Both the position numbers and the translations under genes were made by a program. The notes under the pieces were generated by a model. The model worked only from the letters and a program-made list of their open reading frames with translations, had not been told where the DNA came from and did no database searches. A stretch of DNA of 64,000 bases. It comes from a virus. Shown here piece by piece: positions 17,339-64,000 of this stretch. Within the stretch, counting starts at the first letter, position 1, and each line of letters begins with the position of its first letter. Where the stretch lies: IMG/VR virus record IMGVR_UViG_3300042332_001447, positions 31,774 to 95,773 of that record. One strand, given 5' to 3'.

Positions 17339-20300
17339 TTAAGTGTCGGGGAATAAATTTTTTGTTATAAGGTAATTAAAAGTGTTTTCTACAACTCCGG
17401 TTTCGCTATACCAATCTCTTTTACTAGATAAATTATAGCTTAAAGCAGTGTATTCATTATTCCAATCTATTATATTTTCTATGTATACTGCATTACCTTC
17501 TATTTCTGTAGACGGGTAGACGGGAACGTAATCATAAAATAAATAATTTACTGTTATTGGTTGTGCAAACCCTGTTCCGTCTAACGCTGTTAGCGGGTAT
17601 ACAGTTAGTCCTGATAATAACGGTATAGTTATTAGTGTGTAATCTGAACTAAATTTATTTTGTAAAAATATTTTCTTCCCCGCAGTTAATATAGCGGTTT
17701 CTGTGTTTAGAATTTTTCCAACACTCTTTGAGATAATAGGTATTGAATCTTTAACTCCGCGTATCTTTTCTTTAGGTACAGAAAAGAGGTCTAAAGCTTT
17801 TTTAATTTCTGCTGGAAGAGCGTGGGTGTATTCTATATTTTCTACATCTGTAGCGTTACAGTGAGATATAAGCTGCTCGACAGAACAAACGTCTAAATCC
17901 GCGTGCTGCGGTACAAAGCGAGCTATCCTTTCGTAAATCTTTTCACCTAAATCTTCGTTTACACTTGGTACACTATTACCTACAACTGCTCCAAAAAAAT
18001 CATCAAATAAAAAATCATTACTTTTTAAGTGCTCAGGTAACGCCAGATCTTTATATTCTTTTGCCGTGTTAAAATTTTCATCTACTGTTTTTACTCTAAA
18101 ACTGCTATTAAAATCGTACACAGTAAAAGGATCTGATACACCTGTTAAAAAAGCATCATCTGCTCCATATTTCTGTAACCACCTATTACCTGACCAATCA
18201 CCAGTGGCTTGAGCTGATTTGTAATATGGACTAGATAAAACAGTTGTTATTGCAGTTGTAATGTTAGGAGCGTAACCTATGATAGAATCTGGTAAGATCT
18301 TTATTTGTTTGCCTGTTAAGGTTGCTATAGTTGTCGAGTCCGTGGTGAGTAAGTGAACTATATTTTTTTGAGAATCTATTACCCAGAGTCTATTGAGAGC
18401 GTCTATTGTGAGACCGCCTAGCTCTTCATCTTCGGAAATGTATAGATCTATATTAGGGTTAGGTATAGGTATCTGTTTAAAACTATCTAATATTCCGTTT
18501 GACGTTAACGTCCAGGAAGAAGTCGCATACGTAGTTGAGTCTATATAACCTAATTCTCTAAACCCGTGTGTAAACCACGCATTTGCATCTTTATCTAGCA
18601 TTATATAACTCGGTCTCGAAAACCCGGTTATAGTGTTTACAAGAGTGCCGTCACTCTTGTAGTATTGTATATTACCCCCCGTTGGAGTGGAGTGCATGGT
18701 GTTTGTCACCCATACTCCATTGGACGGAGAAACAGCAACTCCTACAGGTATGCTGTTTATCGGTAAGTCGATTTTATATAACACGCTACCGAACTGATCG
18801 TATTTAAAAAGAGCACTACATAAGGGCTGAGCGTAAGTTACCCATATGTTGTTAAGTTTATCTGTTTCTGCAACTGGGGGTTTAAAAAGCCACTCATCTT
18901 CCTGTATAATATTGTACCCGTCATTCGGGCATGCAGCTAAAAGATAATTAAAATCTTTATCAAATTTAAGCACAGATACTGAATTAAAAAGCGTAATCCA
19001 TATATTGTAGTTTTTATCTATACTCAAATAACTAGGAGTTAACGCAATATCTTCCTGATAACCTATAGCTAGCGTACTACCGGTGCTTGTAACTATACCT
19101 GAACCGTTAGAGAGTGTTAGTCCGCCGCTTGATATTCTTAATTTTAAAGCACTAAGTAGAACTCCAGAGCTATTATATTTATAAATCGTATCACTCTCTG
19201 CATCTGCAGCTAATAGGTCTTGCTCTCTTATATCAACTGCTAAACCATAGACACCTGAAAAACCAGTGAGATTATAATTTTCTGTGCTCGTGGAGGATAT
19301 AAGCGGTACTCTTGTTGTAAGCATCGCACCATCAACCAAAGATCCGTTATTTTTTGCAGCTTTTATTGCGGAACAACTCTCTGTGTACGGTACAACCGTA
19401 ACTCTATGAAGAGTGTTCGATTCAGGGTTCGATACCCATGTGTAGGTTGGTATACTGTAACCAAACGGTTTGGAGAATTTTGTAGCTGTTAAATTTAGAT
19501 TAGAGGTTACTGTTGCAATAACCGCGGTATTAGTTACGGGTTCTAAAGGTATAATATCTGCATAAACATATCCGCCTGTATACGAGCCGTTTGCATCTGT
19601 AGATTGAAAATGTATAGATGGTTGAACAACTTTATACGCAGAAGCTGGTACTCCTTGTAAGGACAAATCAACACTCGTTTTCAACCCTCTAGCGTTTGTG
19701 CCTGGGTGAGAGTATAAAATACCAGATTGACCAGCAGATAACTGTACTTGATCTGTTAAGTGACTGTGAGATGTTATTAATACCGGTATTTTTTTATTAA
19801 CCCATTTTACAGGGTGTACCTTATCTAAATAGTTACCAGTGACTTTGAGATAATCAGGTGGCACTGGGTTAACCTGCCATAATATAGTGGTGTATGTAAC
19901 TTTACTGTTAGCAAAGCTAGGGTATATATACCTCGGAGAATCAGTAGGATTGTAGAAACTTGACGGTAAGAGTGTTAGAGTGAGCATTAGTGCACAATCT
20001 CCGTTAAGAGGATCGACGCCTAGATCATCTATATAATAAAATTCTGCAGTACCTGTAGATCCTACTATCTTAGAATTACAATAAACAGGTGTCGTTTTGA
20101 CAGGTAATTCAGTTATTATTTGATGATTTGAATCTGTGAATCTCCAAGTAGGAACTAAAAATTCCCATTTTTTGGAAACAAAATTATACGGGGTAGAGTT
20201 TGAATTAGAGGAAAATAACTGTATATGTAGAGTATCGCTAATTTGGGCAGAAGTAACTGAAACTACAAACGGTTTCGTAGTTGGTATACCTGGTTTAGAG

Positions 20301-20599
20301 AATGTCGGGGGTATTTGAGTAATTTCTATTAAATCTCTAATAAAATAATCCGCGGTAACGGATAAAACACTCGTACTCTGTTGCCCGCTTGAGTCTGTAG
20401 CTTGTAACTGTACGTTGTAGATGCCCGGGTAGGTGTAGGTATGAGTAACCGCATTGGTGTTATACGTAACATTACCGTCTCCGAGGTCCCAAAAATAGTT
20501 AACAACTGGTAGAGTGCTTACCGTTGTATCTGTAAACACAAAATCAGTACAACCAACAATACCTGTAGTAAAATTTGCACTAAAGTTAGCAGCAATCAT
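17339..20599 (-). CDS. Large virion protein with N-terminal PKD domain and NHL-like propeller
   Basis: A 1086-residue protein next to gp6, at the place where T4 has gp7 (1032 aa); equivalence is only inferred. Residues 1-85 form a clear PKD domain (VNYFWDLGDGNVTYNT, then HTYTYPGIYNVQLQATD). Residues about 450-770 contain repeats of a bacterial NHL/Vgb-type beta-propeller (SIDKNYNIWITLFNSVSVLKF, DKLNNIWVTYAQPL, VAVSPSNGVWVTNT, MLDKDANAWFTHG, IDALNRLWVIDSQ). The last 200 residues are helical/beta with no recognised domain. The propeller and PKD modules suggest a surface-exposed baseplate or fibre-network protein. Confidence 0.6.
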   Translation of the reverse strand: MIAANFSANFTTGIVGCTDFVFTDTTVSTLPVVNYFWDLGDGNVTYNTNAVTHTYTYPGIYNVQLQATDSSGQQSTSVLSVTADYFIRDLIEITQIPPTFSKPGIPTTKPFVVSVTSAQISDTLHIQLFSSNSNSTPYNFVSKKWEFLVPTWRFTDSNHQIITELPVKTTPVYCNSKIVGSTGTAEFYYIDDLGVDPLNGDCALMLTLTLLPSSFYNPTDSPRYIYPSFANSKVTYTTILWQVNPVPPDYLKVTGNYLDKVHPVKWVNKKIPVLITSHSHLTDQVQLSAGQSGILYSHPGTNARGLKTSVDLSLQGVPASAYKVVQPSIHFQSTDANGSYTGGYVYADIIPLEPVTNTAVIATVTSNLNLTATKFSKPFGYSIPTYTWVSNPESNTLHRVTVVPYTESCSAIKAAKNNGSLVDGAMLTTRVPLISSTSTENYNLTGFSGVYGLAVDIREQDLLAADAESDTIYKYNSSGVLLSALKLRISSGGLTLSNGSGIVTSTGSTLAIGYQEDIALTPSYLSIDKNYNIWITLFNSVSVLKFDKDFNYLLAACPNDGYNIIQEDEWLFKPPVAETDKLNNIWVTYAQPLCSALFKYDQFGSVLYKIDLPINSIPVGVAVSPSNGVWVTNTMHSTPTGGNIQYYKSDGTLVNTITGFSRPSYIMLDKDANAWFTHGFRELGYIDSTTYATSSWTLTSNGILDSFKQIPIPNPNIDLYISEDEELGGLTIDALNRLWVIDSQKNIVHLLTTDSTTIATLTGKQIKILPDSIIGYAPNITTAITTVLSSPYYKSAQATGDWSGNRWLQKYGADDAFLTGVSDPFTVYDFNSSFRVKTVDENFNTAKEYKDLALPEHLKSNDFLFDDFFGAVVGNSVPSVNEDLGEKIYERIARFVPQHADLDVCSVEQLISHCNATDVENIEYTHALPAEIKKALDLFSVPKEKIRGVKDSIPIISKSVGKILNTETAILTAGKKIFLQNKFSSDYTLITIPLLSGLTVYPLTALDGTGFAQPITVNYLFYDYVPVYPSTEIEGNAVYIENIIDWNNEYTALSYNLSSKRDWYSETGVVENTFNYLITKNLFPDT

Positions 20600-20601
20600 A
20601 A

Positions 20602-22422
20602 TTAATATTCTACTTGCTCAAAAGAACCAAACGATGAGTTAACCTGTATTCTTGTGTGTAGATTTTCTAAGTCGTGGAAAAACGGGTATTCAAAATATTG
20701 CATTAAAACATCATTTCTTGTTACTTGTATATCATTCTCTGGATAAGACGGGTTCCATATTAAAAACGATACACCATCTACTGATTCACCTGTGTCATCT
20801 CTAACTGTCTTAACTTCACCGACTCCTGGTATGTCCTTTATACCTTGATTTATTTCTCTTAAGTTAATAGTTTGCCCTAACCTTGTATCTACTCTGTTAA
20901 AGTATTTTTTTATAAATTCGACGACATCATTCACGATCATATCATCATTTACTCGTATATTTGGAGATTTACGAATTACAAGTTTACAAATATCTCCATC
21001 AATAGACGCTATATCCGTATCAGATGATTGTACACCAAAGCTTACTGCTTTATATACAGGGTCTACAAACGTTGTTTCAGTAGTAGCCATCTTGGTACTC
21101 AACATAGAGGAAGTTATTAATTCTTTCTGGGCAGGAGTTAAATAGTTGTAATTATTATTAACTGTTGCTCTAGGCACTATAATGAGGTATACATTATTAA
21201 AACTACAACTATCCGCATATAAGACTTGATTAAGAAGCGCTCTATCTGTTGCATAGGGAGCATTTAAACCTATATCATAGAAATATTTCATATAGCCAGA
21301 AGCGTAGGACCAATTATTTACAGCTTTGACATCAGATATTAAATTCGTAAAATTAGCTTTTACAAAAACTTCATAATCGTTTACTGTTACTAGTCTGTAC
21401 TGGCTTCGATAGACTGCTGGTGCAAGTTGCCTTATATCGTCAGCAGTCTCTGGTTCTTTAGGTAAAGTCGAGCTTGCTGCGTTTTTAATTAAAAAGCTTG
21501 GTAATTCGTTAGATTCAAGATATGTGAGCTTTTCGTTATTAACATCATTAATGATACTATCGTACTGTGGTGTATTATATCTTCTAAGCTCAGATGTAGT
21601 AAACTCTTCACCTACCACTCCACTGTCGCCGTCACTTACAAGGTAGTAAATAGCAACTATATCTCCTTCCTTTAAACTCTTACCGTTGATATCGTTACCG
21701 AATTTTAATTCGTATCTTTTATTACTGTTAAATCTTATTTCAAATTTTTCTGCTAAACCATCTTCAAGGTAAAGATTAGTTGTTTTACGGTATTGCTTCC
21801 ACAGTCCAGTTTGGACAGATTTTACATAAACATCAATATTGAAATGATCTACTTTATTGTCTGTGGTGTTTATAATTAAAATTTCATTACCTTCCCCGGT
21901 TGCAACATACTGGGGATATTCTTGATACTGACCTTGAAAAAGAAGTTTAAGTCTTGATAGTTCTAATAGCTCCTCTGTTGTACCGCTAACAGTCTTAACA
22001 ACTGATATATCTTCATTAAATGAATACGCTATACCGTTCATGTTAACAGTGGTATAGCGAGGTATTGCGTAAATACCTTGTGGTAAATTGCTTACTGAAA
22101 CTGAAATAGATAAAGTGGATGTTTGAAAGCCGATGGGGTTATAATCTAGAAGTTTAACAATACGATTCATGTTCTCGTATAATTGACTTTCTGTGAACAT
22201 CGATTCCGTTGATGTTTTGTTGAGATAGTAGATAAGAGTGTGAAAAGAGTAAGCTACTATATCTATAATTGAAGCTAAATTACTACCTATAAAATTTTGA
22301 TCTGTAAAAACTTTTTGTTCGTTGAGTCTACTTACTATTAGCTGTCTTAAAGATAGTGCGTCAAACGCAACGTAACCATCCTTTGGTATACTATAAACGC
22401 TGGAATCTGTTATATTACTCAT
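20602..22422 (-). CDS. 6: Baseplate wedge subunit gp6-like (baseplate J family)
   Basis: A 606-residue protein; T4 gp6 is 660 aa. It shows the baseplate_J/gp6 pattern: N-terminal AFDALSLRQLIVSRLNEQ with NFIGSNLASIIDIVAYSFHT, a middle LAPAVYRSQYRLVTVNDYE segment, and a C-terminal region that repeats the fold. In T4, gp6 dimers link adjacent wedges around the hub and trigger the change from dome to star. The gene lies 3 bases after gp25 on the same transcript, the order expected for wedge genes. Confidence 0.85.
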   Translation of the reverse strand: MSNITDSSVYSIPKDGYVAFDALSLRQLIVSRLNEQKVFTDQNFIGSNLASIIDIVAYSFHTLIYYLNKTSTESMFTESQLYENMNRIVKLLDYNPIGFQTSTLSISVSVSNLPQGIYAIPRYTTVNMNGIAYSFNEDISVVKTVSGTTEELLELSRLKLLFQGQYQEYPQYVATGEGNEILIINTTDNKVDHFNIDVYVKSVQTGLWKQYRKTTNLYLEDGLAEKFEIRFNSNKRYELKFGNDINGKSLKEGDIVAIYYLVSDGDSGVVGEEFTTSELRRYNTPQYDSIINDVNNEKLTYLESNELPSFLIKNAASSTLPKEPETADDIRQLAPAVYRSQYRLVTVNDYEVFVKANFTNLISDVKAVNNWSYASGYMKYFYDIGLNAPYATDRALLNQVLYADSCSFNNVYLIIVPRATVNNNYNYLTPAQKELITSSMLSTKMATTETTFVDPVYKAVSFGVQSSDTDIASIDGDICKLVIRKSPNIRVNDDMIVNDVVEFIKKYFNRVDTRLGQTINLREINQGIKDIPGVGEVKTVRDDTGESVDGVSFLIWNPSYPENDIQVTRNDVLMQYFEYPFFHDLENLHTRIQVNSSFGSFEQVEY

Positions 22423-33366: not shown

Positions 33367-34245
33367 TTATAACTGCATTATTGAAGCTTCGTTTGTTTCA
33401 TTAGCTTTTTCAGTTACAAACGTTTTTTCAAGTTGTTTCATAAAAATATTATATTCCCCGGGTGTACAATTTTCTATATAATCTGCTGATATATTGCTAT
33501 GCTTGGACAGCATAAAAATATTTTCATATATTGCTGTTATATCTTCACTAAAAATAATTTTAAAAAGAGATATTATATATTCTGGGGTTATGTTGATAGG
33601 TATTTTTACTCTTTTATCTATTTTAAGATACTCTAATAAATTAACTGGTTCAAGTTTCTTTTTAACAGCATTAAATCTTTCTCTGACACCTAGCGCGGCT
33701 TTTATAGGTAGCTTGTTAAAAACTTCTATTTTTTTCTCATACGATATTTTATTGTAATCTATTTTTCTATGATCGCCTATAATAACACTCTCAATTACAG
33801 AGCAGGGTAAGTACGTAGGAGGTAAACAAAATATATCTTTTAAGACAGGTATTTTAAAGTTAATTGTTATGTCTTTAGTAATATATGCAGTTTGTAGTTC
33901 TTTAAAGTTTAATTTATCAATTGTTTCTGCGAAAAATAAGAGATTTGCCTGAATATTGGTTTGCTTATCATTTACCGTTGCAATAAGATCTACAATATTA
34001 GGGGAACTTAAGCACTTTATTTGAATTAATAGGCAAATAAAATCTAAAAAATTTAAAGATTCTACTCGTTCAAGCTGTAAGTCTGTTTTATTTGCTACAA
34101 AAGAATTAATGTTATCAATAAAATCTGAAGGAGCACTTTCACATAATAATAAATTTTTAAGTATAAACTTTAAATCTCTTACAGAGTATTCAGCAATCAT
34201 AACATTTTTATCTTTAATGTTAATTTTTACACCAAAAGTATTCAT
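33367..34245 (-). CDS. Baseplate hub assembly protein candidate (gp26/gp51-like), paralogue 2
   Basis: A 292-residue helical protein with the same layout as the following gene: an N-terminal strand pair, then YSVRDLKFILKNLLL, DIFCLPPTYLPCSVIESVII in the middle (compare NVLCSIPTIFTEVLLEEYF in the neighbour) and LNFLDFICLLIQIKCLS (compare LSMFDIGYLVLKTKQVS). The parallel order supports an old tandem duplication. T4 gp26 and gp51 are both small hub-assembly proteins. Its ATG overlaps the stop of the 74-aa gene (34242-34245). Confidence 0.4.
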   Translation of the reverse strand: MNTFGVKINIKDKNVMIAEYSVRDLKFILKNLLLCESAPSDFIDNINSFVANKTDLQLERVESLNFLDFICLLIQIKCLSSPNIVDLIATVNDKQTNIQANLLFFAETIDKLNFKELQTAYITKDITINFKIPVLKDIFCLPPTYLPCSVIESVIIGDHRKIDYNKISYEKKIEVFNKLPIKAALGVRERFNAVKKKLEPVNLLEYLKIDKRVKIPINITPEYIISLFKIIFSEDITAIYENIFMLSKHSNISADYIENCTPGEYNIFMKQLEKTFVTEKANETNEASIMQL

Positions 34246-34466
34246 AATGATGGCGGAGTAGATGCTTTGTTAATCTGTTCTTTACTCGTTTCCTTTGTTT
34301 GAGGAGCTTTATTTACCAGGGTCTGTTTGAGAATATTATTTACATTTTCTGCTGCTTTTGTATTTCCGTACATAATTGCATTAGCGTTATAATTTTCTAC
34401 AATCGACTGTCTTTGATTATCGTTTAAATTTTTCCACAATTCAGGCTTAACGCCTCGAGGTAACAT
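34242..34466 (-). CDS. Small protein heading the hub operon (74 aa)
   Basis: A 74-residue hydrophilic protein (MLPRGVKPELWKNLNDNQRQ; C-terminus Lys/Thr/Ser/Pro-rich) that I do not recognise. It is the first gene of the hub operon and is translationally coupled to the next one by a 4-base overlap. A 14-base palindrome (AGGTAGATCTACCT) lies just upstream at about 34476-34489 and could be an operator or a hairpin over the leader. Confidence 0.5.
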   Translation of the reverse strand: MLPRGVKPELWKNLNDNQRQSIVENYNANAIMYGNTKAAENVNNILKQTLVNKAPQTKETSKEQINKASTPPSL

Positions 34467-34540
34467 GGTTGAGGTAGATCTACCTATAGTTATATTATCA
34501 TTCAGCGTTTCTTTTAGTTGTTTGTTTTGTAATTCTTTGA

Positions 34541-34667
34541 GTGAACTACCGAACGACTAAAGATCGTTCGGCTTCAGAACATAAATGTTCTTTCTTTTTA
34601 GACACTTCATAGCCGCTGCTTTTAAATGAATTTAAAAGTCTTATGTCAGCTCCATGCCTGTAATCGA
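34541..34667 (-). repeat. 127-bp repeat, copy 1
   Basis: Matches 63874-64000 at 121 of 127 positions with no gaps. Similarity begins sharply at GTGAAC, with unrelated sequence before it in both copies, so this is an element boundary. Copy 2 reaches the window edge, so the true repeat is longer. Confidence 0.9.
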
Positions 34668-34851
34668 CAGTTCCTGCCGATGAACATCCATAGTATGTTC
34701 TTTTTGCCTTTGATATACTTGGTATCAGCATCCAAAAGGAAGACGGAGTCTTCCTTGCTACGCCACTGAAAGGTCTTTTCATTATTTGTTTTAGATCTGT
34801 TTCCATTGAAGGGGTCTGTTTATATTTATCTCTTTTATTTATCTTTTGCAA
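34546..34851 (-). pseudogene. 101-codon open frame, possible tnpB 3' remnant
   Basis: The frame ends KKEHLCSEAERSLVVR at a TAG inside the closing hairpin. This resembles the way many tnpB genes end, with the last codons overlapping guide RNA and right-end hairpin. The preserved part of copy 2 (63874-64000) keeps the same frame, with three substituted residues. The N-terminal half shows no zinc-finger or RuvC motif, so a working nuclease is excluded. It may instead be a small unknown protein or simply structured RNA. Composition is richer in G and C than the neighbours. Confidence 0.3.
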
Positions 34852-34890
34852 GGCTGAGTTTCATCTGAGTGACTAAAGATCACTCGGCTT

Positions 34891-35649
34891 TCACTCAGTC
34901 CTGAAATGTAAAGCTTTATTGTTTTTGTATAACTGTAAAAGTTTGTTATCCGTAAAGGTGTCAAGAGTGTAGTAATGATATAAAAAACTTACACCTCTTG
35001 TATCAGATCTAATACCTGCTGAATAATTCCACTCCTCAGAGTCAATCTCAATAGGACATGCACCCCAAAACGTATAGTGCTGAGTAACAGTTGGAGGCTC
35101 TTCTGCTGATGTTACACCGAGCTTCCATATAGAAAAATTACATCTATAATTTTCATCTCCCTTTCTAGCTATTAAACCAAGTCTACTAGTAGCTATTACC
35201 CATGCTCTTAACGTATTATCAACAAAACTGATATTAGTATCTAAAAACTGCATCTTCATTGCCGGGTAAACGTCTCTACCCCCGCCAACATAAGAACGTA
35301 AAAACCCGTTCATTTGATCACCTACAGGGTTAACCGTAGTGCTTTCTCCTGGCATTTGTACGGCTTGGACAAACACACATCCTTTACGGGTTTGATAGGT
35401 TTCGTCAACTGTTGCGTTCACACAATCATCTATAACCCATTTACCAGGTTGGGTTGTAGTACCGTATGTTTTTATAGCCTTAACAGGTATAACATCACTT
35501 TTTGCATCAACAGTCTGACCGTTATAGAGTCCTTCAAACTGCAACATCCATTGCGCGCCTTTCGGTATACTACCAGCAGGACTTGCAAGAACTTCATTAA
35601 GAAAATATGGTACTCTACCTGAAAATGGTGTTGCTTGGAACGTAGACAT
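34891..35649 (-). CDS. Tail tube-fold protein (252 aa), possible tube terminator or tube-like paralogue
   Basis: A 252-residue protein that starts MSTFQATPFSGRVPYFLNEV and has a C-terminal strand pattern FWGACPIEIDSEEWNYSAG, then GVSFLYHYYTLDTF, the arrangement seen in gp19-like tube proteins (a 'P-I-x-I' turn and a closing beta-hairpin). It lies next to another tube-like gene. Other options are a tail-completion protein such as gp3 or gp15. A TATAAATA box (35652-35659) sits only 2 bases before the ATG. Its stop codon abuts the opening hairpin of the mini-element. Confidence 0.45.
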   Translation of the reverse strand: MSTFQATPFSGRVPYFLNEVLASPAGSIPKGAQWMLQFEGLYNGQTVDAKSDVIPVKAIKTYGTTTQPGKWVIDDCVNATVDETYQTRKGCVFVQAVQMPGESTTVNPVGDQMNGFLRSYVGGGRDVYPAMKMQFLDTNISFVDNTLRAWVIATSRLGLIARKGDENYRCNFSIWKLGVTSAEEPPTVTQHYTFWGACPIEIDSEEWNYSAGIRSDTRGVSFLYHYYTLDTFTDNKLLQLYKNNKALHFRTE

Positions 35650-36337: not shown

Positions 36338-38104
36338 TTACGGAGTATATGTATATACAAAGCTTCCGCAGTCGTATATTTTTCTGTAACCGTTATTATA
36401 CATAATTTGTGTCTCTGTAAGATGTTTGCTAGATTCATCGCATATTTTATGTTTTTGAAACTTAACCCTGTGAAAAAGATTTACTGTATCATTGGTGTAC
36501 CAGTAGTTCGGTGAACTACAATGAGATAATGTAAAGCCTAGTGTGCTATATAAATTACCGTTTGAGTATCTTCTATCAGCATAAGATATGACTTTTTTAG
36601 GTGTATATGTCTTTATAAAAAATTGAAACAGCTTCGATGCACCTCCAACAGTTATCGTATTCAAAGTATTACAAAAACGCAAAAGTTCCATTTCTGGTGC
36701 TTTTGATGTAATTTTTCTAGCGCCAAATGTCATAACAGCTACGAGTTCATCTTTATAATAAAGACCTAAATTTATTTTTGACGCACAATCTCCTTGGATA
36801 TGGTTAGTTACAAGAAATTGTTCTTTAGTGAAATTATCGAGAGCTTTTATATGGCAATTTCTTGCGTATATTTTTCTATCAATAACGCCTAATTTACTTT
36901 TAATAACAGATTCTACAATAGGTCTTTTATCTAACCATTCATTTTCAAAAACATGTATTAGCTGTATATTTTTTTCAAGACATAGCACGGTTTTATTTAA
37001 GTGGCTCTTTTTATTTACACTTTCGAGATACGAGTTGTTGGGGTATGTAGTACCAAAACTATGCCATAAAATACCGTTATATTCAATAGCTAATTGTTTT
37101 TGAGGTACTAAAATATCTAATTCTTTTCCGTTTAAAGTGGTAGTATCGTTCTCAATAATATTGAAACCTAAACTTTCTATAAATGCACATATTACTTTTT
37201 CTTCCCTTGATATCCCTTTATCTCCATAGCACCCCGAGCAATAAATATCTTTCCACCTAGCATTTGTGAGTGTTTTTTTGTGAACTTTTTTACATACATT
37301 GCACTGTAATGTAAAAGTGGTGTTTTTTAAACAACTAATATCTTCACTTAAAACAGTGAAATTTTGTTGTTCTATATTTTCAATAATGTTTTTGGTGAGT
37401 TGTTTTATTCTTTCTTTGTTACTACTATTTTTTCTATAACCGGTTATAAAATTATTAAAAACAGCTTTTTGCCCATTGTTGCTTGAACATAAAGGAGGTT
37501 CTATTTTATACTTTAATAAATAAAACCTCTCGCTCCAATTTACATCTTTCAGGTCTTCAAATTTAAGTAAGTAATGCTCTGTATAATGTAAAAGCGAGCA
37601 CAAAATATCACTATGTGCGGTTTTATCTTTTACGTTAATAAAATTCGATAATCTCCCAGTATCCGTATCACGGATTTTCTTATCAACAAACTCTTCTACA
37701 ATCTCTCTTGAAAGTAACGTGTAATGCGAGCTTCTATAGCGACAGAGTAGTTTTTTATTAATATCTTTAATATTTTCTTTCTTATTAAACGATATTTTTT
37801 TATTTCTTTCTTTGAAGTTTATAACATGTTTACTGTTTTCTCTACCGCTTACAAAAGCATATCTTTTTACGCTCGGTAAAAATTTTAAAGGTTGCTTTGT
37901 AACCTCACATATAGGTAGATGTGTTATATTTTCTCGAATACAAAATACTCTCTCTGAAATTGATCTATCTGCAGGGAGAAAGCTAGTAGCATCTAATATA
38001 TCTCTATATAGCTTAGATGCTCTAAACCACTCTCTACGAATTAGAGCGGTATTTACTTTACCAGTTTTTGTTAAAATACAACGCTTAATATCATCTAAAA
38101 GCAT
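36338..38104 (-). CDS. EDxHD (Vsr-like) homing endonuclease, free-standing
   Basis: A 588-residue endonuclease. Residues 60-90 hold a short module (HLPICEVTKQPLKF, then YAFVSGR), likely DNA-binding. Cys 268, 271, 289 and 292 form a zinc finger. Residues 300-350 form the nuclease core (REEKVICAFIESLGF, KELDILVPQKQLAIEYNGILWH), the pattern of the I-Bth0305I/EDxHD group related to Vsr. The C-terminal 200 residues form a conserved domain (KINLGLYYKDELVAVMTFG, LLRFCNTLNTITVGGASKLF, VISYADRRYSNG). It is inserted between tail tube and sheath genes, back to back with a related endonuclease. Its start codon lies in a perfect palindrome. Confidence 0.8.
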   Translation of the reverse strand: MLLDDIKRCILTKTGKVNTALIRREWFRASKLYRDILDATSFLPADRSISERVFCIRENITHLPICEVTKQPLKFLPSVKRYAFVSGRENSKHVINFKERNKKISFNKKENIKDINKKLLCRYRSSHYTLLSREIVEEFVDKKIRDTDTGRLSNFINVKDKTAHSDILCSLLHYTEHYLLKFEDLKDVNWSERFYLLKYKIEPPLCSSNNGQKAVFNNFITGYRKNSSNKERIKQLTKNIIENIEQQNFTVLSEDISCLKNTTFTLQCNVCKKVHKKTLTNARWKDIYCSGCYGDKGISREEKVICAFIESLGFNIIENDTTTLNGKELDILVPQKQLAIEYNGILWHSFGTTYPNNSYLESVNKKSHLNKTVLCLEKNIQLIHVFENEWLDKRPIVESVIKSKLGVIDRKIYARNCHIKALDNFTKEQFLVTNHIQGDCASKINLGLYYKDELVAVMTFGARKITSKAPEMELLRFCNTLNTITVGGASKLFQFFIKTYTPKKVISYADRRYSNGNLYSTLGFTLSHCSSPNYWYTNDTVNLFHRVKFQKHKICDESSKHLTETQIMYNNGYRKIYDCGSFVYTYTP

Positions 38105-38185: not shown

Positions 38186-40045
38186 ATGGATATAGTTTTA
38201 TGTAGCTTACAAAATAAAGAGCTTATTTTAAGTTTAAGACTTCAACACCCTAAGCATTACGTTAAGTTTATAAAAATGAAACATCAAGTATTATGGAGAG
38301 ATGCGTTATGCTATAATCAAGTGCTCTTTAAAGATACAGACATGTTCACTGCTCCTCATATATTATACAATTGGATATTTAATATACAAATAATACCGCT
38401 CTGCCCAGTTAAGCAGACACCGTTAAAATTCCACGACAGGTTATTTGAATATAGAAAATTTAGCGGCCGTGGGATATTCACTGAAGAGTTTGTTGCATCT
38501 AGAATGAAAACAAGAACAAGGTTTCCAAATTTTAAAGAAAGATTTAAAGCAAAAAGAGAAGAGTATAGCTGGGATGATGAGTATAAGGAGATCGCGAAAA
38601 AAACAATCACTACGCTTTTGCACGAGAAGAATGATAATATAGGTGGCGTATGTGCAATTATAAAAACGACAAAAAATGCAAAGCTTTATTTTTTCTTAAC
38701 AGAAACATATTTCGACGCCAATACTCTTACGGAGTGTATTTACAGGCTTGTGAATGATATTGAAAAACTTCCTTTGTGTCAATATACACAAAAACCTCTA
38801 AAGTTCATAAATTTCAATAAAGGCTATAAATCATATGACGTAACTGCTGTTATTGAGTATAAAGCAAGCAGAAAGAAAGAGAGAATTGCTTTGGGTATTT
38901 TGCTTTCTAAAGAGGAGACACGTAAGAAGTTAAAGGAAATACTAGAGAGTTGCAAGGAAGCTGGAATGAGTGCTAGAAACTTAAAACAAACCGCACTATC
39001 ACACGACCCTAGCGTTGTGTACTCAGTATACGAACATACAAAAACACTTTCAACTCTCACAACTAGATGGGCTGAAAGAGCGTATACACTTCTGCATGAT
39101 TACGATCCATCTGAAAAGAGGCAGCGGTTTATTTCCTTTGAAGATGGTTATTGTGACACATTCACAAGTGTTAATAGTTCTCGAGGTGAGAACGAACTGG
39201 CTGATTGGCTGCAAAGTGTTTGTATTAATAGAGAGATAAGCAGACATGAGAGAATCTTGAATGGTATGGAGATTGATATACTCATTGAAAATAAAATAGG
39301 GTTTGAATATCACGGGGAGTATTTTCATAATTTTGAATTCAAAGGTAAAGATTATCATAAACAAAAAGCTGATTTAGCTCTTTTAAATAACGTAAAACTT
39401 ATTCAAGTCTTTGAAACTGAGTGGTACAATAAGAAAGATATTGTGAAGTCTATTCTATTATCTAAACTCGGTATCATACAACAGAAAATATACGCAAGAG
39501 AGTGCTCTGTGCAAGTATTGGATACAGATATTAAAAACAGTTTTCTACAGGAAAATCATATACAAGGTCAAGATAGAGCTTCGGTTAATTTAGGCCTTAT
39601 GCACAAGGGTAACTTAGTTGCCTGTATGACATTCGGTAGAGGTTACATGGAAAAAGATAATTCAACCGAGTTAGTGCGATTCTGTAATAAGCTCAATACT
39701 ATCGTTGTAGGTGGCGCAAGTAAATTACTTCAGTCATACATAAAGACATACAAACCTTCAAGTATTTTTACGTATGCAGACAGAAGATACTCAAACGATA
39801 GTTCGTTTTACGAGCAACTAGGCTTTACACGAACCGGTCAGACAGTGCCAAATTATTTTTACTTTAAGCCAGCTTTACCACAGTATATGAAGCTCCAGCA
39901 CCGTTATAATTTTGCAAAACATAATCTCAGTAAAAAACTTATGTATTTTGATTCAACACAAACAGAATATCAGAATATGAAAAATAACGGCTATTTTAAA
40001 ATATACGATGCAGGTAGCTACAAATATATTTTAGAGTTAAACTAG
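38186..40045 (+). CDS. EDxHD (Vsr-like) homing endonuclease, free-standing, second copy
   Basis: A 619-residue paralogue of the divergent 588-aa endonuclease. It carries the N-terminal module twice (IPLCPVKQTPLKFHD with KFSGR; KLPLCQYTQKPLKFINF). The nuclease core reads SSRGENELADWLQSV, NGMEIDILIENKIGFEYHGEYFHNF, LIQVFETEW. The C-terminal domain is conserved (ASVNLGLMHKGNLVACMTFG, LVRFCNKLNTIVVGGASKLL, FTYADRRYSND). The zinc finger of the other copy is not seen. Its 3' end overlaps the end of the sheath gene by 9 bases. Two divergent related nucleases at one site suggest a duplication or successive invasions. Confidence 0.8.
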   Translation: MDIVLCSLQNKELILSLRLQHPKHYVKFIKMKHQVLWRDALCYNQVLFKDTDMFTAPHILYNWIFNIQIIPLCPVKQTPLKFHDRLFEYRKFSGRGIFTEEFVASRMKTRTRFPNFKERFKAKREEYSWDDEYKEIAKKTITTLLHEKNDNIGGVCAIIKTTKNAKLYFFLTETYFDANTLTECIYRLVNDIEKLPLCQYTQKPLKFINFNKGYKSYDVTAVIEYKASRKKERIALGILLSKEETRKKLKEILESCKEAGMSARNLKQTALSHDPSVVYSVYEHTKTLSTLTTRWAERAYTLLHDYDPSEKRQRFISFEDGYCDTFTSVNSSRGENELADWLQSVCINREISRHERILNGMEIDILIENKIGFEYHGEYFHNFEFKGKDYHKQKADLALLNNVKLIQVFETEWYNKKDIVKSILLSKLGIIQQKIYARECSVQVLDTDIKNSFLQENHIQGQDRASVNLGLMHKGNLVACMTFGRGYMEKDNSTELVRFCNKLNTIVVGGASKLLQSYIKTYKPSSIFTYADRRYSNDSSFYEQLGFTRTGQTVPNYFYFKPALPQYMKLQHRYNFAKHNLSKKLMYFDSTQTEYQNMKNNGYFKIYDAGSYKYILELN

Positions 40046-54887: not shown

Positions 54888-55796
54888 TTACTGTCTCGGC
54901 ATTTTAAAAAACGGCGTTTCCGGGGTTTTCAAAAATGACGGAATCATACTCTCACTACTAGCTCGTACCGGGTTAATATCCAGACTACCACGTCTCACGT
55001 AGAAGCAACCTACAAAGAGTTCTTCTGCCTCATATACTTCTTTTAAGCGAGCGTAAAAACATTCACAAATTTCTTCATGAAAATGGCACTCATTTCTAAA
55101 GCTTATAATATACTTTAAAAGGCTTTCTGGATCAATATTATGTTTTGTCGTAATACTAATATATACATCCCCAGCGTCAGGTTGATTTGTAACTCGGCAA
55201 TTCGAACGAAGCAAACTACTGCAATAGCGCTGATTAATAGCAGCCCCTATATTGTCTTCAGTATTAATAGTTTTCAACAAACTAGGTGTTTCATTATACG
55301 TTTCCGTAACAAGTTTACTATTAATTAAATCGATATTCTTAAACGTTTTAAAAAATACATCACTATCTGTAGACGGGTGTTTAGCAGCTGTAAAAATTTT
55401 AACAACCACATCTGTTTCAAGATAATCAGACAAATCTTTACTCGAGGTATTTTCAATATTTTTAATTACATCTGCTGGCGTTTTACCGAAACGCGACATA
55501 TTAAAAGAGTTAAAATATAGTTTTGCTGACTTAGATTCAACAATATATTTACTACTACATGGATACGTGATCTTAGCAATACCCGTTACTGGTAACCCAG
55601 TATCTGTTAGCGCACTAATCTCCCAGTTATTCCAAATATCAATACCGATAAAAGGTAAATTATCATCCTTAATATTGAGATACTCTCTGTTATTTGCACG
55701 CTTCTCTCTTACGAGGATACTTTTATCATACTGTTTTGGTGCATCAACTCGTTGACCTAATACTTTGCTTATTTCTGTGTTATCTAATTTACTCAT
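54888..55796 (-). CDS. queF: NADPH-dependent 7-cyano-7-deazaguanine reductase (QueF, long type)
   Basis: A 302-residue enzyme of the YqcD type (E. coli QueF is 282 aa). It reduces the nitrile of preQ0 to the aminomethyl of preQ1. Motifs: KITYPCSSKY and the QueF motif ESKSAKLYFNSFN (residues 87-99), catalytic Cys200 in RSNCRVTNQPDAGDVYI with Asp207, and FRNECHFHEEICE (233-245). The gene overlaps the kinase-like gene by 4 bases. It ends the row dpdA-like, formyltransferase, kinase-like, queF, so preQ1 is the expected intermediate for DNA modification. Confidence 0.92.
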   Translation of the reverse strand: MSKLDNTEISKVLGQRVDAPKQYDKSILVREKRANNREYLNIKDDNLPFIGIDIWNNWEISALTDTGLPVTGIAKITYPCSSKYIVESKSAKLYFNSFNMSRFGKTPADVIKNIENTSSKDLSDYLETDVVVKIFTAAKHPSTDSDVFFKTFKNIDLINSKLVTETYNETPSLLKTINTEDNIGAAINQRYCSSLLRSNCRVTNQPDAGDVYISITTKHNIDPESLLKYIISFRNECHFHEEICECFYARLKEVYEAEELFVGCFYVRRGSLDINPVRASSESMIPSFLKTPETPFFKMPRQ

Positions 55797-56311
55797 AAAT
55801 TGTTTTTAATTTGCTCAATTCTATCACTAACAGTTCCTGTTAGTCTTATAATATTAAGATTATAATCTCTAATAATATTTTCAAAATTTATATTTACCGC
55901 GTTAAAAAATTCTCTATTTACAGATCTTTCTCCGTCCTCTACAAGAGGTAATTCCGGTACAATATAAAACAAACGATCGTAGCTATATATCATAGCTTCA
56001 AACATTTTAGTAATAATACTTCTAAAAGGTAGATCTATTTTATCATAAAAATACATACTATACGCAAGACCGTCTAGTGCACTTCGATCTAGTACAACAT
56101 TATTTCCTTGATTTAGTCTCTCATAATGCTTTAACATTACATGTAACTGCGTAACAGTCGTTCCGTTTTCATTAATCGGTATACCTTGTTGTTGTAAGTT
56201 ACGTGTGAGATTAGTTAAAAATAGATAATCTTTAAAGATAGACTCGTCTTTCAGTGCGTTTACTAGTGTACTTTTACCTTGACTTGCTCCACCTGAAATT
56301 GCAATTTTCAT
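55793..56311 (-). CDS. P-loop nucleotide kinase-like protein
   Basis: A 172-residue P-loop protein (MKIAISGGASQGKST, Walker A at residues 7-15) with a lid-like and LDRSALDGLAYSMYF segment resembling AAA_28/NadR-type and deoxynucleoside-kinase-like phage proteins. It is placed between the formyltransferase and queF, overlapping queF by 4 bases. A role in nucleotide metabolism or in handling the 7-deazaguanine precursor is possible, but the substrate is unknown. Confidence 0.65.
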   Translation of the reverse strand: MKIAISGGASQGKSTLVNALKDESIFKDYLFLTNLTRNLQQQGIPINENGTTVTQLHVMLKHYERLNQGNNVVLDRSALDGLAYSMYFYDKIDLPFRSIITKMFEAMIYSYDRLFYIVPELPLVEDGERSVNREFFNAVNINFENIIRDYNLNIIRLTGTVSDRIEQIKNNL

Positions 56312-62047: not shown

Positions 62048-63840
62048 GATAATATATATGTAATACCATTTCGTTTTTCAAGCATAATAGTATTATCTAT
62101 ATTACCTAAGACTACTGAACCTCTATGTGTTATTATATAGCTACTCTCGTTATATAAACTAAAACGCTCTCTTAATATATCTAGAACTAACTCTACCCCT
62201 TTTTCATCTAGCGCCGAGTCAATTAATTCATCATAAAACACTGTACTAAAAACTATATCTCCCTGTAGTCTCTTAATATCTAGAAACGCAAATAAACAAG
62301 CAAGATCTATTCTCTTTCTTTCACCGCCCGAGAAATTAAAATACGACTTTATATTACTTTGTTCATCTGTAATCTCGTCTTCAAAAAACTCATTAAATTT
62401 ACATATACAGTTAGCGTGTAATTTTCCTAGATAATAGGAAAGTCTTGAGTTTAACAAATCAAGCACCTTTTTAACAATATACGATTTTACACCTTCCTCA
62501 GATACAATAAACTTTACATGCTCTAAAACTTGTAATTCTGTATTAAGCTCGTTAACTTTTTGCTCTATGTTTAAAAATTCTTTTTGCGTACTATCAATAA
62601 GAGCTAATAACTGATCATTAGTTTCTAATTTTATTTTAACAATATCCTCGTGATACTGAGTTATAGATTCTTTTATATACTTAATTTTTTCAATTATCTT
62701 GTTATTGTTATCATTGATATCTAAAAGATTTTTTTTCTTTTTACTAAACGTATCTACTTCTGCTTGAGCAGTATTTCTCTCAGATACTATTTTATTAAAT
62801 ACTTCTGTCTGCTGTAATAACTCTATCTCTGTATCTTCAATTTGTTTTTCTAATTGACTTATACGTTCTTCTCTGTGTTTATTATCAACATCATCGTACG
62901 GTCTTGAACACGCCGAACAAACAGCGCCAACTTTTTTAACATCAACTATTTGTTGTTTATAATTCTGTACCTTATCTTTAACACTGTTTATTAAAACTTT
63001 TGTGCTAATGAATTTTTCATCATTCGTTTGTTTTAAAGTAATAAGAGTGTTAATTTTAGTATCAATAAGAGAGAGCGCTTTCTCCGGTACTTTTTTAAGA
63101 TGAGTGTTTAATTGCTTTATAGTTAATTCATGCTTGTTTATCTTATCTTTTATGTCTTCTTCTCTTTTAATTTTACTCTGTTCAAAATATTCAAGTTGTG
63201 TTTTATTATTCGTAATTGTATTTGTTAAGCTCGTTTGCTTTGCAAAAAATACTTCATAATCTTTTTTTGTATCATTATACTCTTCTCGTACTTGCTGAAG
63301 CATTTTAGAAAAAACTTCTAAATTTAAAACATTTTCGATATACTTTCGTTTATCTATTTTACTCTGAGCCATAAACGGCACTGTATTATTTACCGTCATC
63401 ACTACAGAGTTTTGAAACACATCGCTCGTTGCTCTTATTATGTTTTGAATAAGTTCGTTTGTTTTCGGTAAAGTAGAGAGTGTTATATCTTCATCATTTT
63501 TAAATAATTGACACTTTGTAGGTGCTATGCTTCTTTTAATAACATATCTGTCTACTACGTTATTATGTACTAAATCGAAGTGTAAAGTAACCTCACAATT
63601 CTTTTTATTGCTAGAATTAACAATAAATTCTTTACTGAGCTCCCGTATTGTTGTGCCGTAGAGTGCGAAGTGTAGAGCTTCTGTTATTGTAGATTTCCCT
63701 ACACCGTTTTTTGAGTCTTCTTTATCTCTATTAATCCCTGTAATTGCATTAATACCTCTTAGAAAAGATATTTCTGAAACATTGTTACCAAAGGAAAGAA
63801 AATTTTTAATTACGAGGTCTTTGAATACAATTATTTTCAC
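62044..63840 (-). CDS. 46: Recombination endonuclease ATPase subunit gp46-like (Rad50/SbcC family)
   Basis: A 598-residue SMC-like ATPase (T4 gp46 is 560 aa). N-terminal FKDLVIKNFLSFGNN and Walker A SKNGVGKST; long coiled coils with a zinc hook (CSACSRP) near the middle; C-terminal signature NFSGGERKRIDLA and Walker B region STVFYDELIDSALDEKG. With gp47 (not in the window) it resects DNA ends for UvsX-driven recombination. The start is GTG at 63840. The repeat copy 2 lies 33 bases upstream. Confidence 0.92.
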   Translation of the reverse strand: MKIIVFKDLVIKNFLSFGNNVSEISFLRGINAITGINRDKEDSKNGVGKSTITEALHFALYGTTIRELSKEFIVNSSNKKNCEVTLHFDLVHNNVVDRYVIKRSIAPTKCQLFKNDEDITLSTLPKTNELIQNIIRATSDVFQNSVVMTVNNTVPFMAQSKIDKRKYIENVLNLEVFSKMLQQVREEYNDTKKDYEVFFAKQTSLTNTITNNKTQLEYFEQSKIKREEDIKDKINKHELTIKQLNTHLKKVPEKALSLIDTKINTLITLKQTNDEKFISTKVLINSVKDKVQNYKQQIVDVKKVGAVCSACSRPYDDVDNKHREERISQLEKQIEDTEIELLQQTEVFNKIVSERNTAQAEVDTFSKKKKNLLDINDNNNKIIEKIKYIKESITQYHEDIVKIKLETNDQLLALIDSTQKEFLNIEQKVNELNTELQVLEHVKFIVSEEGVKSYIVKKVLDLLNSRLSYYLGKLHANCICKFNEFFEDEITDEQSNIKSYFNFSGGERKRIDLACLFAFLDIKRLQGDIVFSTVFYDELIDSALDEKGVELVLDILRERFSLYNESSYIITHRGSVVLGNIDNTIMLEKRNGITYILS

Positions 63841-63873
63841 GTGTACACTTTATTTGATTACTTACCTGCTTTC

Positions 63874-64000
63874 GTGAACTACCGAACGACTAAAGATCGT
63901 TCGGCTTCAGAACATAAATGTTCTTTCTTTTTAGACACTTCATCGCCGCTGCTTTTAAATTGCTTTAATAGTCTTATATCAGCTCCATGCCTGTAATCGA
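63874..64000 (-). repeat. 127-bp repeat, copy 2, running off the right edge
   Basis: Matches 34541-34667 at 121 of 127 bases. It carries the same closing hairpin (63882-63904) with perfect 8-bp stem and the CTAAAGA loop. The open frame is kept (ends SEAERSLVVR). The full element, perhaps with a tnpB gene, would lie to the right of the window. It sits just upstream of gp46. Confidence 0.9.

Follow-up and report, generated by a model that had tools for sequence, protein, structure and literature searches.

Predicted guide-only mini-elements of the IS200/IS605 type, joined to a conserved RNA domain, in a phage that encodes TnpB

What could a short element without a gene do in a phage genome in which it recurs at many sites? 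The question is raised by a 64,000-base stretch of viral DNA from the IMG/VR record IMGVR_UViG_3300042332_001447 (hereafter the window; bases 31,774-95,773 of a 95,773-base record, which stops at window base 64000). In this window an element that we call A lies on the minus strand and interrupts a gene (Table 1). Its right end resembles those that follow tnpB genes; TnpB, an RNA-guided DNA cutter, is related to the ancestor of CRISPR Cas12. We propose, with a probability of about two in three, that A and its copies are non-autonomous IS200/IS605 elements akin to palindrome-associated transposable elements (PATEs), that they would provide guide RNAs to phage TnpB in trans, and that they would spread by homing.

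Read on the minus strand, A follows TTTAC and runs from ATTTCAGGACTGAG to GTAGTTCAC (window 34907 to 34541). The original prediction, made from the letters of the window, had placed a mini-element at 34541-34887 with a 127-bp segment recurring at 63874-64000 and a sharp boundary at GTGAAC. The right end and its boundary hold, since just 9 of 20 positions agree beyond the edge, and the repeat is exact as claimed (121 of 127 positions identical between 34541-34667 and 63874-64000); the left end was misplaced and lies at 34907, after TTTAC. The window contains the 26-bp edge motif twice, compared with a mean of 0 over 100 shuffles. The second copy is not a 127-bp segment: it measures 127 bp because the contig ends at 64000, and another contig, G003, opens with the identical 127 bases and then runs on as a full element. 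An assembly graph that breaks at a repeat typically leaves an overlap of just this size, 127 bases, and the length therefore has no biological meaning. The element had been said to be present at least twice, which the count given below exceeds; what had been missed are the true left end and the TTTAY motif before it, the number of copies, the gene that A interrupts and the RNA domain specific to the mini-elements.

Table 1. Coordinates of element A, its parts and its surroundings (window positions)
Feature	Position	Strand	Remarks
Predicted guide-only mini-element A	34541..34907	-	367 bp; edges from 12 left and 14 right ends with unrelated flanks
TTTAC, target/TAM-like pentamer	34908..34912	-	abuts element A on the 5' side
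Left end with subterminal hairpin, TCTTTAG loop	34850..34907	-	also at 10 further left ends and in the tnpB1 element
Two GATAAATA copies, candidate phage late promoter	34836-34843, 34823-34830 (34823..34843)	-	putative function
Mini-specific 5' RNA domain	34682..34781	-	two covarying hairpins
Predicted omegaRNA core	34541..34681	-	cmsearch E 3.4e-33; covariation; ISDra2 layout
Core parts	34663-34681 (stem 1 with GGAAC loop); 34549-34571 (UUUA stem 4 hairpin)	-	3' end GTAGTTCAC
Predicted 16-nt guide TCAAAGAATTACAAAA of element A	34525..34540	-	position by ISDra2 analogy, ~16 nt of flank
5' part of interrupted gene	34891..35649	-	252-aa open reading frame; last codons inside the element
3' part of interrupted gene	34242..34540	-	frame open as far as the element; no ATG before 34466
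Second copy, right-end part	63874..64000	-	127 bp, equal to the start of contig G003; guide 63858-63873

In order to count the copies, we searched the record (G000) together with three IMG/VR contigs of metagenome 3300042332 that hold further ones (G001, 9,144 bp; G002, 57,748 bp; G003, 33,520 bp), 196,185 bases in total. The four contigs probably come from one phage or from siblings, because they share the elements and the 127-base end overlap. A covariance model of the core, run with cmsearch, detected 14 distinct right-end cores with E below 1e-20, the copies at the end of G000 and the start of G003 being taken as one; three of them follow an intact tnpB and 11 are found without a tnpB. Every right end finishes in GTAGTTCAC, and the sequence after GTTCAC is different in all 14. 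A pattern search located 12 left ends (those of the tnpB3 element, which has a different sequence, and of copy G2b, which has lost its own, are outside this count). Ten left ends follow TTTAY and the other two CTTAC and TCTAC; given a TTTAY background frequency of 0.6%, the binomial P is 6e-21. Since the copies are related and their flanks are not, they represent separate insertions. In copies B and G2f (L009:14786-14844 and G002:57577-57640) either the loop of the left-end hairpin is inverted or its arms have changed places, so that these left ends are perfect palindromes, as if strand switching had flipped them. Two weak matches of the core model, at window 55779-55843 (-) and L067:12855-12993 (+) with E of 0.002 and 0.008, are perhaps decayed copies or chance.

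The flanks bear directly on what the right ends could do. The guide had been placed just beyond GTTCAC on the minus strand, in keeping with the distinct flanks found after the 14 right ends. The putative guide would lie directly 3' of the element and the transposon-associated motif (TAM) directly 5' of it, as in omegaRNA loci; the agreement is one of geometry only. We considered 15 predicted guides, those of the 14 right ends and that of a 53-bp fusion, G2solo. All differ, and none has a second match beside TTTAY in the 196,185 bases, allowing up to 2 mismatches in 16; for A, two other matches exist (1 and 2 mismatches), neither after TTTAY. A TnpB loaded with such an RNA should therefore spare its own genome and cut the element-free site. 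G2solo itself (L065:2348-2400, that is G002 22348-22400) consists of a left end fused to a right end via the shared TCTTTAG loop; it is preceded by TTTAT and is a minimal remnant.

In the 116-nt scaffold of the ISDra2 omegaRNA, stem 1 is accompanied by a UUUA-capped stem and by a pseudoknot that pairs a GAA run with GUUCA close to the 3' end (PMC10097598). The mini-elements carry GUUCA at -6 to -2, UUUA at -21 to -18 and GGAAC in the loop of stem 1, so that the omegaRNA-like character ascribed to the right end is supported at stem 1, the pseudoknot letters, the UUUA loop and the 3' end. A flank-derived guide is a further likeness to ISDra2 (PMC10097598, PMC8612924). In the mini-elements, 98.1% of cells of the tested structure pair and 14 of 29 pairs are changed on both sides; with the tnpB-linked ends included, the values are 97.7% and 7 of 18. 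No shuffle out of 500 reached the observed value in four of five measures, and 3 of 500 did so in the fifth. Slid versions of the structure paired in 29-46% of cells, a control over which the structure is favoured since it was named by the analyst and partly drawn from the same sequences. The pseudoknot pairs are invariant, and covariation is therefore silent on them. For the RNA-sense strand of 34541-34781 the folding energy is -72.2 kcal/mol (z = -4.3), a value equalled by 0 of 200 shuffles. A long-range pairing between AGACCUUUCA and UGAAGUGUCU, suggested by folding, was dropped as its 3' side changes in the copy of a second phage, G020, and its 5' side does not. Taken together, these observations support the prediction of an omegaRNA-type guide RNA for the mini-elements.

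We asked whether the hairpins could instead be DNA sites for replication, recombination or packaging, with no role as RNA. The right-end palindrome folds strongly as DNA (z -4.9), and the loop inversion and arm exchange in B and G2f would suit such sites; the left-end hairpin of A as DNA folds only weakly better than shuffles (z -1.6). However, covariation is also seen in inner hairpins a long way from the ends, and the omegaRNA pattern is followed by both the UUUA loop and the letters of the pseudoknot, which makes this explanation very improbable.

A guide RNA is of use only to a nuclease. The original prediction, which proposed a guide-RNA-only or non-autonomous element that another TnpB could use, suggested looking for a tnpB to the right of the window; one exists, to the left. 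TnpB1 (413 aa, record bases 21,031-22,272, outside the window and about 44 kb from A) contains the HTH_OrfB, OrfB_IS605 (Pfam 2.4e-24) and TNB (4.1e-23) domains, and its closest solved non-designed relatives are ISDra2 TnpB chains (E 7e-79). Two further tnpBs are found in G002, 60% identical to tnpB1 and 88% to each other. All three proteins keep the RuvC D, E and D residues and, judged by sequence, the OrfB/TNB domains, RuvC triad and zinc ribbon are those of active TnpBs; the proposed use by another TnpB is thus plausible. TldR repressors are nuclease-dead, and this identity was rejected since the triad is retained in the three TnpBs. The tnpB1 element has the same left end as A and a right end of the same type, about 75% identical to that of A, which bears out the IS200/IS605-style, TnpB-type right end that had been claimed. 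As in PATEs, A has the left and right ends of the tnpB1 element and no gene between them, with an extra non-coding 5' domain.

The main rival to guide supply in trans follows from this likeness. The mini-elements could be ordinary PATE passengers, deletion derivatives moved by a transposase acting in trans, in which the right end is kept as a substrate and the omegaRNA is a functionless by-product. PATE-like IS605 elements made of ends only, without tnpA or a complete tnpB, have been described, one of which retains a right end of 160 nt together with 58 nt of tnpB (PMC7290912). Right ends without tnpB are also frequent: among the matches listed for the right-end motif in IMG/VR, 93 distinct ends (our own contigs, set by a hand-made list, genome_contigs loci and duplicates being left out) comprised 55 with tnpB, 21 without one over more than 1.5 kb upstream and 17 too near a contig end, and lone right ends are therefore common in phages. 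Some of these may follow decayed or unrelated tnpBs. Likewise, G2solo looks like simple decay. Against passengers, copy G2b has lost its left end and yet has the best-scoring core. The main argument against them is the 5' domain, which is not derived from tnpB, shows compensatory changes and is the part best conserved between two phages. We thus consider passive carriage rather unlikely.

One lone right end has an identical flank, ATGAACCTACAAGAAAACAT, in six viral loci (L118, L125, L148, L164, L165 and L189); the flank may be a fixed guide lying immediately ahead of a gene. Several right ends with the same motif, with no tnpB close by, are present in archaeal genomes of the Methanosarcina type (L089-L099).

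The 5' domain occupies about 100 nt upstream of the core in the mini-elements, and the tnpB-linked right ends have no such segment. Its helices 1 and 2 show double changes in 3 of 4 and 4 of 6 pairs; helix 2 has three forms that share a loop pattern, and the changes therefore represent few independent events. A model of the domain with stem 1, built from the 9 complete mini-elements, recovers these same 9 at E of 2e-27 or better, and two halves at contig ends match it at 6e-15 and 1e-7. The tnpB-linked ends score 15-24 bits, compared with 132-156 for the mini-elements. No strong match was found in 57 other right-end loci except L190, a cut-off copy of the same phage. Among the matches listed, the domain was seen only in G000-G003 and in G020, an independent contig (IMGVR_UViG_3300032331_003909) whose copy is 74% identical overall: 89% in the 5' domain and 75-76% in the left end, spacer and core. 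Rfam gave only matches below the gathering score for the domain in the window and none for the G020 copy. In the ISDra2 omegaRNA, cutting does not require the 5' region (-231 to -117), where the RNA overlaps tnpB (PMC10097598). As the 5' domain is the best conserved, constraint in the mini-elements is strongest outside the segment that TnpB is known to require; a role in processing, stability or loading is a guess. In another phage, a guide-only element of about 170 bp (L197:11571-11683) has a left-end-like hairpin almost directly before the omegaRNA core and no clear 5' domain.

Conservation of the 5' domain and its restriction to mini-elements would also suit a phage regulatory RNA, of which this domain would be the working part; TnpB with the RNA, or the RNA alone, would then control phage or host genes and not mediate homing. 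TnpB-derived RNA-guided repressors (TldR) do exist in phages (PMC13418256). Nevertheless, the three TnpBs differ from TldR in keeping the RuvC residues, no guide has an own-genome target beside TTTAY, and every guide is simply flank. We regard a regulatory RNA as improbable.

Joining the flanks of A yields a single open frame (...YKNNKAL|LKELQNKQ...), which raises the possibility of an IStron or other self-splicing intron leaving the mRNA of the interrupted gene. However, no Rfam intron family was found at threshold, and an element that starts with AUUUC and ends with CAC lacks both group I and group II borders. Moreover, several copies lie outside clear genes. The intron was thus rejected as scarcely credible. 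A protein-coding origin was also rejected: Pfam gave no match for the 101-aa open reading frame of A, and in 4 of 9 mini-elements (G2d, G2e, G3a and G020) this frame is interrupted; the mini-elements are therefore not coding.

From the edges, the copies, TTTAY, the core structure, the distinct guides and the active-site residues, all read in the DNA, we infer transcription, loading in trans, cutting, homing and a transposase source as follows. The sense strand of the element would be transcribed, possibly from an internal late-type promoter, giving an RNA that joins the 5' domain to the omegaRNA core and to a guide of about 16 nt from the adjacent phage sequence. One phage TnpB would take up this RNA in trans and would cut TTTAY followed by the guide sequence, that is, the same locus without the element. 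During mixed infection the element-free genome would be cut, then repaired from or displaced by the element-bearing genome, and the mini-element would spread like a homing element with a borrowed nuclease. New sites would require a Y1 transposase from elsewhere, and every insertion would write a new guide.

Several results weigh against this proposal. Among nine junctions, only that of A is restored in frame, and joining the flanks of G2e restores an ATGA stop/start overlap of two genes; those of B and tnpB1 are not restored, and the other five have no clear interrupted gene (the tnpB1, G2d, G2e and G3b junctions were read by hand). IMG/VR yielded no relatives either of the nearby tail tube or of the 5' portion of the gene that A interrupts, phage records yielded none of the interrupted gene or of the gene cut by tnpB1, and a natural element-free allele was found in neither search. 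Identity between the mini cores and the right end of tnpB1 is only about 75%, and no tnpB lies on the 29-kb contig of G020, the second phage with such an element. The Y1 transposase TnpA (PF01797), which would mark an autonomous IS200/IS605 element, is absent from the four contigs at E up to 10, although these may be incomplete. Finally, their assignment to one phage is itself only probable.

Known systems share some of these features. Compared with ISDra2, the elements have TTTAY in place of TTGAT, lack tnpB, and carry as their 5' part a separate structured domain instead of tnpB sequence. They differ from PATEs in their 11 copies in phage, a complete omegaRNA core and the added conserved RNA domain. 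In Ktedonobacter, stand-alone IscB omegaRNAs were reportedly found by Altae-Tran in 2021, a single genome holding many guide loci that lack a nuclease gene; there the nuclease is IscB and the setting a bacterial chromosome, whereas here they are TnpB and phage. Free-standing and intron homing endonucleases of T4-type phages likewise spread by cutting element-free alleles, and two such genes lie near A; the proposed difference is that for the mini-elements an RNA would determine specificity and the nuclease would be shared. TnpB has been described as a drive for IS elements in plasmids that cuts element-free copies (PMC11870625). The proposed spread is the same, except that in plasmids the spreading element carries TnpB and here it would be borrowed, in phage. 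A role in copying was proposed for TnpB with its discovery (PMC8612924). Guide-only ends are themselves already known; what is new is a phage with 11 of them and an RNA domain specific to the mini-elements. No description of guide-only TnpB elements in phages was found in the titles and abstract openings searched, a search with most subscription literature outside it.

The surroundings of A are those of a phage with T4-type features. Most copies, like A, have two GATAAATA-like sites between the left end and the 5' domain, and the RNA could be initiated there. ATAAATA, the core of the T4 late promoter, occurs 47 times in sense and 10 times in antisense orientation within the 80 nt that precede each of 196 open reading frames. 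GATAAATA is the rarest of four forms at these sites (4 of 47), and the promoter idea is therefore a lead only. A tail tube gene of the T4 type is adjoined by two divergent large homing endonuclease genes of PHROG 3339 near A (window 36338-38104 (-) and 38186-40045 (+); E 1e-103 and 3e-88). By eye, the gene beside the second copy (window about 63500-63830 (-)) looks like a T4 gp46/SbcC-type ATPase, with GVGKST. A PhoH-like ATPase frame (L010:588-2510, record 18588-20510) has an apparent intein, seen from reading the translation, inserted after GPAGTSKA... and ending ...CIVTHN.

More tentatively, the elements may form a dispersed, self-writing guide library, in which a few TnpBs serve many guide-only elements in trans, the 5' module frees the guides from tnpB mRNA, and the whole serves as a mobile array against co-infecting relatives. 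If the proposed supply of guides is true, one cutter could be aimed at many sites by gene-free elements of about 360 bases, and guide and nuclease would be separated in a natural TnpB system, inside one virus. Acceptance of omegaRNAs in trans by TnpB and guide-only spread via a borrowed nuclease would become testable, and a covarying RNA domain joined to omegaRNAs is supplied. The elements would also offer a possible view of the separation of guide genes from nuclease genes on the way to CRISPR-Cas12.
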